A stretch of DNA of 64,000 bases from an uncultured Alphaproteobacteria bacterium. Lineage in GTDB: Bacteria > Pseudomonadota > Alphaproteobacteria > HIMB59. Below, in pieces: positions 21,185 through 43,784 of the stretch. A model generated the notes under the pieces. That model searched no databases. It had not been told where the DNA came from and saw nothing but the letters and a program-made list of their open reading frames with translations. Each line of letters opens with the position of its first letter. The first letter of the stretch is position 1. The stretch is from contig CACMGP010000003.1 of the NCBI GenBank assembly GCA_902613185.1, positions 62,001-126,000 on the forward strand, written 5' to 3'. The position numbers were made by a program, and so were the translations under genes.

Positions 21185-21240
21185 GAAAAAACTTACTCAC
21201 AAATTATAAACAGAAAAATTTATTTTTTTGGTTTTTGATA

Positions 21241-21269
21241 TTGCCATTAAAAATTAAGTATTTTATAGT
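21241..21269 (+). promoter_or_regulatory. Sigma70-like promoter of the structured RNA
   Basis: TTGCCA at 21241-21246 and TATAGT at 21264-21269 are separated by exactly 17 bases. This is one of the best matches to the sigma70 consensus in the window and predicts a start of transcription at about 21276, at the first GTAGAGG motif of the RNA described next. Confidence 0.7.
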
Positions 21270-21275
21270 AAAAAT

Positions 21276-21388
21276 GTAGAGGGTAGGAAACTTCCCAAAA
21301 CAAAGAAAAGGACCGAAGCAGTAGAGGCTAAGAGATGGGAAACCAAATCATAGTCGAGACAGTAGAGGTCCTTTTCTGATTTTTTCTT
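21276..21388 (+). ncRNA. Candidate structured small RNA with two GAAA tetraloops and a terminal U-tract
   Basis: No open reading frame is apparent here. A predicted transcript of about 110 bases folds, by eye, as follows. Hairpin 1 pairs 21281-21286 with 21291-21296 around a GAAA tetraloop, with one T-T mismatch. A long-range 9-base-pair stem pairs AAAAGGACC (21306-21314) perfectly with GGTCCTTTT (21367-21375). Inside it, 21326-21330 pairs with 21351-21355, leading to a second GAAA-capped stem at 21334-21349. A U-rich run follows at 21380-21385. The motif GTAGAGG occurs three times (21276, 21321 and 21362). It is not recognised as tmRNA, SRP RNA or RNase P RNA. Alternatives are a 6S-like RNA or a leader of the secreted-protein gene at 21442. 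Confidence 0.65.
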
Positions 21389-21441
21389 TATTATTATTTT
21401 TTAAACTTCTAGAAAAATATAATTATTGTTATAATTATTAA

Positions 21442-21888
21442 TTGAAAAAACTAGCCTCATTTATTTATATATTTGTAATATCAATCAATTTAAATGCCTA
21501 TGCCGGACCATTTACAGATGATTTTGCTAAATGTTTAGTAACTAAAACAACCAACCAAGAAAAAAAAGATTTAGTAAAATGGATTTATGTAACTATTTCA
21601 TTTCATCCTCAGTTAAATCAAATGTCAAATCTTACCGCGGAAGATGTTGAAATGGCAAATATAAGAGTTGCTGATTATATGACAAATGTTTTTGCTTATA
21701 AGTGTAATGATGAATTAAATCAAGCTATTAAATATGAGGGCGAAGAAAGTATTTTATATGCATTCGAGCTTTTAGGTGAATTAGCGATGGGAGAGCTGAT
21801 GCAAGATGAAGGGGTAACAGCAGCTAGTGAGTTATTTATAGAATATGTCGACCTAAGTATATTTGCTGAGTTATTTGCAGATTTTTAA
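21442..21888 (+). CDS. Small secreted protein of unknown function
   Basis: Not recognised. The 148-residue protein starts with TTG at 21442 and has a clear signal peptide (KKLASFIYIFVISINLNAYA, cleavage before GPF). The mature part begins GPFTDDFAKCLVTKT, is mostly helical and acidic, and has two cysteines (in AKCLV and YKCND) that may form a disulfide in the periplasm. It starts 56 bases after the U-tract of the structured RNA. Whether the RNA is its leader or an independent gene is not decided by sequence. Confidence 0.7.
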   Translation: MKKLASFIYIFVISINLNAYAGPFTDDFAKCLVTKTTNQEKKDLVKWIYVTISFHPQLNQMSNLTAEDVEMANIRVADYMTNVFAYKCNDELNQAIKYEGEESILYAFELLGELAMGELMQDEGVTAASELFIEYVDLSIFAELFADF

Positions 21889-21979
21889 ATCAAATTTTTA
21901 CATATTTATTAGCAATAATACAAAAAAACTAATAAGCTAAAAAAAATTATTTTGAAATTTCAAATTTAATTTATGAATT

Positions 21980-23833
21980 GTGAATAAAATACTCAATCCA
22001 AATATTTTTTTTATTATAATCACCTTCATTTTATTAAGGTTTATTGATAGCGAATTATTTTTTAAAGGTGTGATATTTATTATAATTAGCATCACATTAA
22101 TTTATCTCCCACAAAAAAAACTAAATAGAATTAACCTATCAATATTGGCCATTCTAATACTTATATTTTCAATTATTAATGAAAAAAAAATTATTGTAGA
22201 AAAAAGTGGACCTTTAAAAATAAATTATCAAAATGAAAAACAGTATATTGAACTTTTAGGCATAGACAGGTTTTCTTTTATTGAAGATTATTATAAAAAT
22301 AACGCAAAAGAGTGTTATTTAAACACATTAGATTGTTTTTATAATAATGATATTAAAAATAACTATCTTTCTCCAGATCAGTTAGTATTTAATACTAAGA
22401 ATACCTATTCAAGAAAAGTTGCAAAAATCAACTTCCAAAACTTAGCTGATGCTAGAATGTCTTTTGTTAATTCAAGCTCAGGCAATGTAAATTATCGAAA
22501 TATATTTAAACTAGATACACCCTATTATGTAGAGTACCAAAACCTAGAACATATTGACTCTTTCTGTTTCAAAGGATTAGGGTACATTGAAACAATCAAC
22601 TCAAAATTTATAGGTCTTCACCATGAAGATAACAAATGTATAAACAAAACTATAAAAAGCTTTACTGGTTTTAATTTACCTAACCATAATTTACAAATTT
22701 TATCCTCAGAAAAAACTTATTCTAAATTTTTTGATGAAATAATATTTATAGTTTTTTTGGTGTTTCTAATTATTAATTTAAATTATAAAAAAATAAGTTC
22801 TAGAGAATTAAAAATCTATATACCTGTATTAGTAAGTACTTTTATAATTTTTTATATATCAAGATTTGATAATTGGTTTAATGTTTTTAATCTTTTTAAT
22901 TTCTACTTTTTTGGTTTTGAAGGGGGAGATGGCTCTTTTTATATAAATAGCGCTCATATACTTTTCGAGAGTTTTGCAAATTTAAAGATTTTAGATTTTT
23001 TAAGAGCTGGTGAAGATGTATTTTATTTTACTCCAGGTTCAAGGTATTTTTTATTTTTAAATCAATTAATATCAGGTGATTTTTATTATCTATATTTCTT
23101 CACACTCTTTTTCTTACCAAAAATTATAAATAAATTTTTAATAAATCAGTTTGGTGAAAAAGTAGGGTATTATATGACTTTATCTTTTTTGCTAATACCA
23201 TTTCTTCATCATCTTGGTATTAGTTACTATCAGTATATCAGACACGCATACAGATTATTTCCTGAACCTCTTGGTTATATGTTTTTTATAGCTGGTCTTA
23301 CAATTTTTCTACATAGTTTTAGGGAGAATTATTTAAAAATGAATTTATTATTTGCAATTTCCGTATTTCTTAGACCAAATTTAGTGTTATCGGTGGCTTT
23401 AATTATGATCATTAAGACGTTTTATGAAAAAATAAATATCTTTAATTTTAAATACCTAATACCACTTTTTTTTATTTCTTTAATCTATTTTTTTCCATTG
23501 ATGCATAACCTATATTTTGGAAATTCTTTTACTTTATTTACTGAATATGGCTCAAATATGATGAAATTAGAAAATATTTATAACAATATAGATTTCTATT
23601 TTAATAAATATAAGTTGATAAATTTAATATTTTTATCTTTGATATTAATACCCGGTTTAAATATTTATTTAAAAATTATATTAATCTCTCAATTATTTAC
23701 TGTATTTTGGTTTGAGACCCTAGGGAGATATTATTGGATATACTGGTTGGTTTCTCTAAATTTATTATATGATATCTTTTACAAAGCTTATAAAAACAAA
23801 TGGCAATTCCAAAAAGTATTTACTTCAAATTAA
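21980..23833 (+). CDS. Large multi-pass membrane protein, possible GT-C glycosyltransferase
   Basis: A 617-residue protein starting at GTG 21980. Three hydrophobic helices in the first 60 residues are followed by a soluble, probably periplasmic, domain to about residue 245, then by about ten further helices. The layout of many helices with short aromatic loops (FFGFEGGDGSFYINSAH near residue 312, YIRHAYRLFPEPLGY near 417) recalls polyprenyl-phosphate-sugar-dependent GT-C enzymes, but the N-terminal soluble insertion is unusual and no family can be named with confidence. It overlaps the following methyltransferase gene by 34 bases. A UbiA-like prenyltransferase gene lies opposite, so an envelope glycan role is the best guess. 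Confidence 0.6.
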   Translation: MNKILNPNIFFIIITFILLRFIDSELFFKGVIFIIISITLIYLPQKKLNRINLSILAILILIFSIINEKKIIVEKSGPLKINYQNEKQYIELLGIDRFSFIEDYYKNNAKECYLNTLDCFYNNDIKNNYLSPDQLVFNTKNTYSRKVAKINFQNLADARMSFVNSSSGNVNYRNIFKLDTPYYVEYQNLEHIDSFCFKGLGYIETINSKFIGLHHEDNKCINKTIKSFTGFNLPNHNLQILSSEKTYSKFFDEIIFIVFLVFLIINLNYKKISSRELKIYIPVLVSTFIIFYISRFDNWFNVFNLFNFYFFGFEGGDGSFYINSAHILFESFANLKILDFLRAGEDVFYFTPGSRYFLFLNQLISGDFYYLYFFTLFFLPKIINKFLINQFGEKVGYYMTLSFLLIPFLHHLGISYYQYIRHAYRLFPEPLGYMFFIAGLTIFLHSFRENYLKMNLLFAISVFLRPNLVLSVALIMIIKTFYEKINIFNFKYLIPLFFISLIYFFPLMHNLYFGNSFTLFTEYGSNMMKLENIYNNIDFYFNKYKLINLIFLSLILIPGLNIYLKIILISQLFTVFWFETLGRYYWIYWLVSLNLLYDIFYKAYKNKWQFQKVFTSN

Positions 23834-24360
23834 GACCTTTAATTTTACCAATTGATGAAATTTTATCTTTCATTCCTCATAATGCGCATATTTTAGATTT
23901 AGGATGTGGAAAGGGACTTTTACTTGAACACATCAAAAATTTTAAAAGCTATAAAGGTGTTGATTTAAATATCCCCTCAGATAAATATAAGGATGAGATA
24001 AACTTTGTGAAAGGTGACTGCATTAACTTTATTGATAGAGGATTAGAGGATTATAATACTTTTCTTTTAATTGATTTACTTCACCATCTTAAACCAAAAT
24101 ACCAATTTATTTTTGTAAAAAAATTAATAAATCGAATGAAAAGAGGTGATATTTTAATTATCAAAGATATATATCCTAAAAACTTTGTAACTAAATTTTG
24201 GAATTCTTTTCATGATTTTATAATTTCTAAACAATTAATCAATTATTTTGATTTTAATAGTTTTGAAAATACTCTAACTAATAATTTAATAATATTGGAT
24301 AAGTTTCATAAAAGAATATTTTTATATGATCATTTTTTCTTTGTTTTAAAAAGAAACTGA
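23800..24360 (+). CDS. Class I SAM-dependent methyltransferase
   Basis: A 186-residue methyltransferase. The SAM-binding motif I is HILDLGCGKGLLLEHIKN near residue 32, motif II acidic residue in YKGVDLN near 55, and motif IV-like LLIDLLHHLKP near 93. The start codon lies inside the 3' end of the large membrane protein gene (34-base overlap), which suggests translational coupling and a shared envelope or lipid role. The 3' end overlaps the convergent UbiA-like gene by 15 bases. The methyl acceptor is unknown. Confidence 0.8.
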   Translation: MAIPKSIYFKLRPLILPIDEILSFIPHNAHILDLGCGKGLLLEHIKNFKSYKGVDLNIPSDKYKDEINFVKGDCINFIDRGLEDYNTFLLIDLLHHLKPKYQFIFVKKLINRMKRGDILIIKDIYPKNFVTKFWNSFHDFIISKQLINYFDFNSFENTLTNNLIILDKFHKRIFLYDHFFFVLKRN

Positions 24361-25185
24361 GTTCCCTATAAATATAATAAAAAATATTGATACTAGAATA
24401 AAGTTTACCTTATTTTGATAAATGAAAACAACTATATCTTGATTTTTATTTTTCTGAATAAATAGAAAATTTACAATTATTAATATTATTATTAATAGAT
24501 TAACAAAAAGCAATTCCTTATAAATAAAAAATTGATTTTTAGTAGGATCTATTGTGAAAAGTAAAAAAATTAAAACTGCAAAAAAACCAAAAAAGAGCTG
24601 CATTAATTGAATTTTTCTTCTATCTTTTTCATCATAGGGCCTATTTGTATAAGCCTTATCTATTTCAACAAGTCTCTTATTTGATCCAATCATTAAAAAA
24701 ATTGCAGAACAAAATAAAATAAAATAAACGCTCAAACTTACTTTAAATGCTAACGAGCCATAAATAATTCTTAGTATATGAAATAAACTTAATATAAATA
24801 TATCTAAATACCTCTTTTTCTTTAGATAAAAATTATAAGATATTGATAATAAAAAATAAAAAAGACAAACAACAAATATTTTTTGATTAGTGAAGTAAGA
24901 AAAAGTTATTAGTACCAAAAAACTTATTATACTTAAGAAATAATACGTATTTTTAATATTTAAATTTAATGAGTAACTTAGTTTCTTATTTTTTATGTCC
25001 TCTTCATAATCATTTATATTATTTAAAAAATAAATTATTGAAGATAGAAGTGATATTATTAAAAAATAAATAATACACTCAAAAAAGTTGATGGTAAAAA
25101 AAGAATGACCGACTAAAACTGGTAAAAAAATTATTAAATTTTTAATCCAATGATGAATTTTAAATAAATAAAAATATTTCTTCAT
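24346..25185 (-). CDS. UbiA-superfamily prenyltransferase, decaprenyl-phosphate phosphoribosyltransferase-like
   Basis: A 279-residue protein with about eight membrane helices. It opens with IHHWIKNLIIFLPVLVGH, which resembles the RPxQWxKNxLVFxPL start of the UbiA branch that transfers phosphoribose to decaprenyl phosphate. The first acidic metal motif is LNNINDYEEDIKNKK (NDxxxD) near residue 58. The second is degenerate, with EIDKAYTNRPYDE near 175. Enzymes of this branch make decaprenyl-phosphoryl ribose/arabinose donors for cell-envelope glycans. The GT-C-like gene opposite could use such a donor. Ubiquinone UbiA is less likely because of the opening motif. Confidence 0.68.
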   Translation of the reverse strand: MKKYFYLFKIHHWIKNLIIFLPVLVGHSFFTINFFECIIYFLIISLLSSIIYFLNNINDYEEDIKNKKLSYSLNLNIKNTYYFLSIISFLVLITFSYFTNQKIFVVCLFYFLLSISYNFYLKKKRYLDIFILSLFHILRIIYGSLAFKVSLSVYFILFCSAIFLMIGSNKRLVEIDKAYTNRPYDEKDRRKIQLMQLFFGFFAVLIFLLFTIDPTKNQFFIYKELLFVNLLIIILIIVNFLFIQKNKNQDIVVFIYQNKVNFILVSIFFIIFIGNSVSF

Positions 25186-43438: not shown

Positions 43439-43485
43439 ACTTGTTTTTCTAAAAGTGAGAGGAAAAAATAACTTTAAATTAAAAA

Positions 43486-43511
43486 GGGGCGTTCTGTTGC
43501 CCGGCCGCCCC
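43486..43511 (-). terminator. Rho-independent terminator of the tmRNA gene
   Basis: On the reverse strand GGGGCG (43511-43506) pairs with CGCCCC (43491-43486), closed by a 14-base loop, and is followed by a TTTTT run (43485-43481). It ends the pre-tmRNA transcript. Confidence 0.8.
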
Positions 43512-43735
43512 AAAGCCGCGCTTACCTAATTAGATTAAGCAGCGAGTGCTAATTCATTATCGTTAGCAATTATTTTAAGTTTCTATGTCGAAGAAACGCT
43601 TACAACGAGCAAAAACTATATCCTTCAGAGCACGTCAAACCTATATCACCCCCATAAAAAAATTATGGTGGAGGTGTCGGGTACCGCCCCCGAGTCCGAT
43701 ACACCTATTACATATAGCGTTTATTGCTATAGTTG
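43486..43735 (-). ncRNA. ssrA: Permuted two-piece transfer-messenger RNA (tmRNA)
   Basis: The reverse strand carries the alphaproteobacterial permuted form. The acceptor piece comes first: its T-arm (TCGGG, loop, CCCGA) and CACCTCCACCA end at 43666. A short spacer follows, then the coding piece starting GGGGGTGATATAGGTTTGACGTG at 43653. The tag frame at 43567-43535 reads ANDNELALAA and stops with TAA, an unusually short tag (10 residues, no FAEE-type insertion). ATATAG in the coding piece can pair with CTATAT in the acceptor piece to rebuild helix P2. The terminator closes the transcript. The 5' end of the precursor (about 43735) is approximate. The RNA rescues stalled ribosomes with SmpB. 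Confidence 0.92.
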
Positions 43736-43784
43736 ATAAACAACGAAGATAATATAGTCTAATAAATGAATCCTTTAAACACCT

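Follow-up and report, generated by a model that had tools for sequence, protein, structure and literature searches.

Comparison of homologues makes it very probable that positions 21276–21381 (forward strand) of the window, the whole 64,000-nucleotide stretch of DNA analysed here, form a standalone structured RNA gene, and that such a gene really exists is almost certain. The RNA family belongs to a known kind, the standalone bacterial structured small RNAs (sRNAs), and is itself previously undescribed and narrowly distributed. The host genus is alphaproteobacterial and consists of streamlined marine cells. The RNA measures 106 nt in the window and about 106–112 nt overall (ends predicted). 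The following features were distinguished:

21193–21213 (+): upstream DNA element TTACTCACAAATTATAAACAG, a putative regulator site spanning roughly -83 to -63 relative to the start of the RNA, aligned in 34 homologues
21214–21234 (+): A/T tract, a candidate UP-like element between the upstream element and the -35 hexamer, in which runs of A and of T are conserved from -62 to -41
21241–21246 (+): -35 hexamer TTGCCA, whose TTG is kept in homologues with small indels
21264–21269 (+): -10 hexamer TATAGT (genus pattern TANNNT), 17 bases after the -35 hexamer
21276–21381 (+): RNA, with the 5′ end predicted at about G21276 and the 3′ end predicted at about 21381–21388, within the T-tract
21276–21301 (+): 5′ domain GUAGAGGGUAGGAAACUUCCCAAAAC, nearly invariant (99.3% mean pairwise identity, 21 sequences)
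21281–21296 (+): helix P1, a GAAA-capped hairpin in which 4 of 5 pairs never vary
21304–21377 (+): long irregular hairpin closed by P2 (21304–21314 with 21367–21377; 99.4% paired, 6 pairs changed on both sides)
21318–21363 (+): helix P3 (21318–21322 with 21359–21363) with 3x3 purine-rich loops on either side (93.2% paired, 3 of 4 pairs changed on both sides)
21326–21355 (+): GAAA-capped helix P4 (21326–21338 with 21343–21355; 6 pairs changed on both sides, inner part looser)
21378–21388 (+): T-tract, together with P2 a putative intrinsic terminator read from the sequence, T-rich in all homologues

Fold and covariation

The long stem, a 9-bp helix (AAAAGGACC/GGTCCTTTT; 11 pairs if AG/CT is counted), leads directly into the T-tract. 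This combination was recognized by eye, and a simple terminator scanner limited to short loops called none. An earlier note on this DNA had described the GAAA hairpin (21281–21296), the 9-bp stem, the inner GAAA stem and the T-tract, and all of them lie in the sequence where it placed them. Its remark that nothing codes here agrees with the finding that the homologues share no conserved start codon within the RNA.

The forward strand of the region 21276–21388 has a folding energy of -37.6 kcal/mol, compared with a shuffle mean of -21.9 (z -4.96), and no shuffle was as good. Unaided, RNAalifold returned the same fold from 33 distinct homologues, including 12 pairs with structure-preserving changes on both sides. 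In the drawn structure, which contains 31 pairs, 90.5% of the cells of these 33 sequences are paired. The compensatory changes that the earlier note proposed to look for in relatives are kept in the stems: 15 of the 31 pairs changed on both sides, against 8.7 in shuffles, and the number of cells with such changes was 84, against 34.7 in shuffles and 3–9 in slid versions of the structure. The covariation score behaved likewise (0.220 vs. 0.118 for shuffles and 0.027–0.090 for slid versions), and P2 occurs among the homologues as GGACC/GGUCC, GAGCC/GGCUC and GGGUC/GACCC. At the level of aligned sequences, covariation is thus found to back the predicted secondary structure. Helix P1 is beyond such testing because it hardly varies. 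A G-U pair between alignment columns 52 and 79 is kept in 31 of 33 homologues; it works only as forward-strand RNA and so fixes the strand.

Promoter and upstream DNA element

The TTGCCA-17-TATAGT promoter of the earlier note is present (21241–21246 / 21264–21269) and conserved across 34 homologues. Position 1 of the -10 hexamer is T in 34/34, position 2 is A in 31/34 and position 6 is T in 33/34, the middle three positions being variable, and an invariant GTAGAGGG follows about seven bases past the -10 region. Taken alone, a promoter-like site lies within chance in such AT-rich DNA (2 sites found, 1.5 expected). The motif GTAGAGG, to which the earlier note had drawn attention, does occur three times (21276, 21321 and 21362), but the weight placed on three copies is not sustained, the third being unique to the host genome. 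Two copies were counted in 27 homologues, one in five and three in one, with the first two copies conserved; in dinucleotide shuffles a repeated 7-mer appeared in 50% and a triple 7-mer in 1.7%. Because the promoter and the repeat each lie within chance by themselves, homologues were needed for both. Judged from the 34 homologues, the predicted promoter is conserved as a promoter, in its TTG, 17-base spacing, TANNNT pattern and invariant start.

The upstream element (genus form approximately TTAYWCACAWWTTATAAACAG) always lies about 60–83 bases 5′ of the RNA, and every carrier among 60 relatives has one site at this fixed distance. Stray matches with one mismatch were seen in two genomes without the RNA, where they are scattered and not linked to it. 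Two direct repeats resembling TTATNNACA and spaced by about 11 bases make up the element; the first half (TTATNCACA) is similar to a DnaA box, and conservation is higher in the second half (TTATAAACAG). Expression of the RNA is probably regulated through this element and a putative regulator.

Distribution and genomic neighbourhood

Of the 52 genomes belonging to the host's genus, 34 matched a covariance model of the RNA, always as a single copy. The RNA was not found in the other 18, several of which are fairly complete, and is for this reason not essential to the genus. The same model gave no match in the order's remaining 110 genomes, and among 385 genomes sampled across the class none outside the genus had one. 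With laxer filters, 28 genomes without a match gave a single match only (E 0.81), and no remote homologues were seen in the genus genomes lacking a match, in the sister family or in the class. A DNA search matched 25 of 60 relatives, host genome included; 23 matches were full-length or nearly so and the remainder short and T-rich. When 84,980 species genomes were scanned for the 5′ hairpin pattern, 33 loci came up, every one of them in a single-cell or metagenome assembly of a marine alphaproteobacterium (some carrying the label Pelagibacteraceae), and no viral contig with the 5′ motif was found by pattern scan. An order of small marine genomes that comprises two families would fit the HIMB59/AEGEAN-169 lineage (PMC10308909, PMC10734472). 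A well-supported RNA family is hereby added to a streamlined ocean lineage in which little intergenic DNA survives, and its covariance model makes metatranscriptomes searchable for expression.

Sequence identity is 86% for the RNA, 99% for its 5′ domain, 85% for the upstream peroxiredoxin-like coding DNA and 45% for the 60 bases just 3′ of the T-tract. The usual upstream neighbour is a same-strand peroxiredoxin-like gene (AhpC-TSA), replaced in three relatives (L022, L057 and L023) by an unrelated gene; the spacing between the RNA and the upstream gene stays at about 94–108 bases, in these three as well, while the neighbours on both sides vary. Other homologues have, downstream, aldehyde-dehydrogenase-like, short-chain-dehydrogenase-like, methyltransferase-like or other genes (named by eye from their translations). 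As a separate observation, the window region 21400–24400 and the homologous downstream flanks show strong variation in gene content between species, as if this were a spot of gene turnover.

The suggestion of the earlier note that the RNA serves the gene at 21442 as its leader has to be abandoned. A cis-acting leader or attenuator would fit the window and the many homologues in which a same-strand gene comes next whose product, a small secreted protein, matches no Pfam family. However, the T-tract stands before the gene at 21442, and at least 11 of the 34 homologues are followed by a different gene on the opposite strand, with the RNA and putative terminator kept; because downstream gene content varies in this way, we consider a leader highly improbable. 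Equally improbable is a DNA-level element, i.e., a replication origin or a protein-binding hairpin that is not expressed as RNA: the DnaA box-like sequence upstream speaks for it, but the kept G-U pair, the promoter pattern and the terminator point to RNA, and no clear GC-skew switch was seen at the locus.

Possible mode of action

The explanation that best accounts for the whole, and to which we give roughly even chances, is an undescribed, independently transcribed, trans-acting sRNA that most likely binds a protein. Transcription would begin from the sigma-70 type promoter at the first G of GUAGAGGG and end at P2 and the T-tract, its level probably being set by a regulator at the fixed upstream site. 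Variable neighbours, an own promoter and a putative terminator suggest action in trans. Specific contact with the protein would be made by the invariant hairpin domain at the 5′ end, and shape and stability may come from the long rod, which consists of short helices and GA-rich 3x3 loops. As the 5′ domain has been kept near-identical under streamlining, the RNA likely has a real job.

Protein binding, considered by itself, is put forward tentatively, at somewhat less than an even chance. It is preferred to base pairing with mRNAs on several grounds: a closed hairpin takes up most of the invariant part, the remainder is a rod with GA-rich loops, no RNA chaperone was found, and a target scan was not clearly above shuffles. 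A base-pairing regulator, in which the invariant 5′ domain (GUAGA, the opened P1 and AAAAC) would pair with one or more mRNAs independently of Hfq, is rather unlikely. The 99.3% identity of the 5′ domain is as expected of a seed region, the RNA has an own promoter and a putative terminator, the conserved upstream site suggests regulated expression, and long duplexes are among the top scan matches; on the other hand, P1 locks most of the 5′ domain, and the comparative scan, which covered 900 ortholog pairs, gave results not clearly above those of 23 shuffled queries (best hybrids -24.1 and -21.9 vs. -24.0 for the best shuffled query). The top match, located between pstS- and pstC-like genes, is a hairpin in its own right, and the next one falls in the terminal part of the reading frame preceding a TolR/ExbD-like gene. 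A perfect 13-mer in an acetyl-CoA-synthetase-like reading frame was judged a coding coincidence. Furthermore, neither Hfq (PF17209) nor ProQ (PF04352) was found in any of 10 genomes (the host, 92% complete, and nine relatives), in which the same kind of search recovered 5-FTHF cyclo-ligase (10/10) and SRP RNA (nine); an sRNA dependent on either chaperone was rejected on this ground. Base pairing keeps some weight because energy-based scans miss many real targets. Independently of this, the GC-rich hairpin AGGGGCAAGATTTCTTGCCCCT in the pstS-like/pstC-like gap (host contig C2, complement strand) was observed to be identical in relative G017.

The notion of a 6S-like RNA, also raised in the earlier note and implying a polymerase-binding RNA that replaces canonical 6S in this lineage, is very unlikely. 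The RNA is standalone and rod-like with its own promoter, and no Rfam 6S was detected in 60 genomes of the order or at the zapA-fau site, where zapA- and fau-like genes are adjacent with nothing RNA-like between them (L126–L135); 6S may be lost or very diverged in the order. Against this stand the largest loop of 3x3 with no open central bubble, the unpaired ends, the extra 5′ hairpin and the length of 106 nt, as well as the absence of the RNA from a sister family that likewise has no detectable 6S. Returning to protein binding, none of the usual RNA regulators (6S, Hfq and ProQ) was detected in the lineage carrying the RNA, and a further proposal, which we regard as improbable, is that a genus-specific RNA controls a protein, possibly RNA polymerase itself or a factor associated with the ribosome, as a lineage-made substitute for these regulators.

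Comparison with known RNAs

The Rfam search recommended by the earlier note, 6S included, gave nothing relevant to the RNA in the window either at gathering thresholds or at E ≤ 10, and no matching RNA was found described in the literature. Covariation, promoter conservation and the absence of Rfam matches bear out its central idea of a structured, undescribed RNA under a promoter of its own. Elsewhere in the window (43483–43783, reverse strand), the Rfam search identified a gene for alphaproteobacterial tmRNA in its two-piece (permuted) form (195 bits).

The bacterial small SRP RNA (RF00169) is similar in its length of about 100 nt, GNRA-loop hairpin and purine-rich internal loops; it was rejected as an identity, the host's SRP RNA being located elsewhere (C1:580357–580451). 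With 6S RNA (RF00013) the new RNA shares the standalone, rod-like form and an own promoter; this candidate was rejected as well, with no model match in the window and a consensus fold that has a 5′ hairpin and no loops other than 3x3 ones, and the new RNA differs in having no central bubble, unpaired ends, an added 5′ hairpin and a shorter length. The SAR11_0636-associated candidate RNA (Meyer et al., 2009, PMC2704228) is comparable in that it, too, comes from streamlined marine alphaproteobacteria, may be transcribed separately and has variable genes downstream; it is described as a three-stem junction, whereas the new RNA forms two hairpins in series, a distinction drawn from the described folds. 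An own sigma-70 promoter and a putative terminator stem at the 3′ end resemble those of the sRNAs that end in intrinsic terminators, from which the new RNA differs in that its host lineage has no Hfq or ProQ that could be found and in that a long structured rod sits on top of its putative terminator stem.
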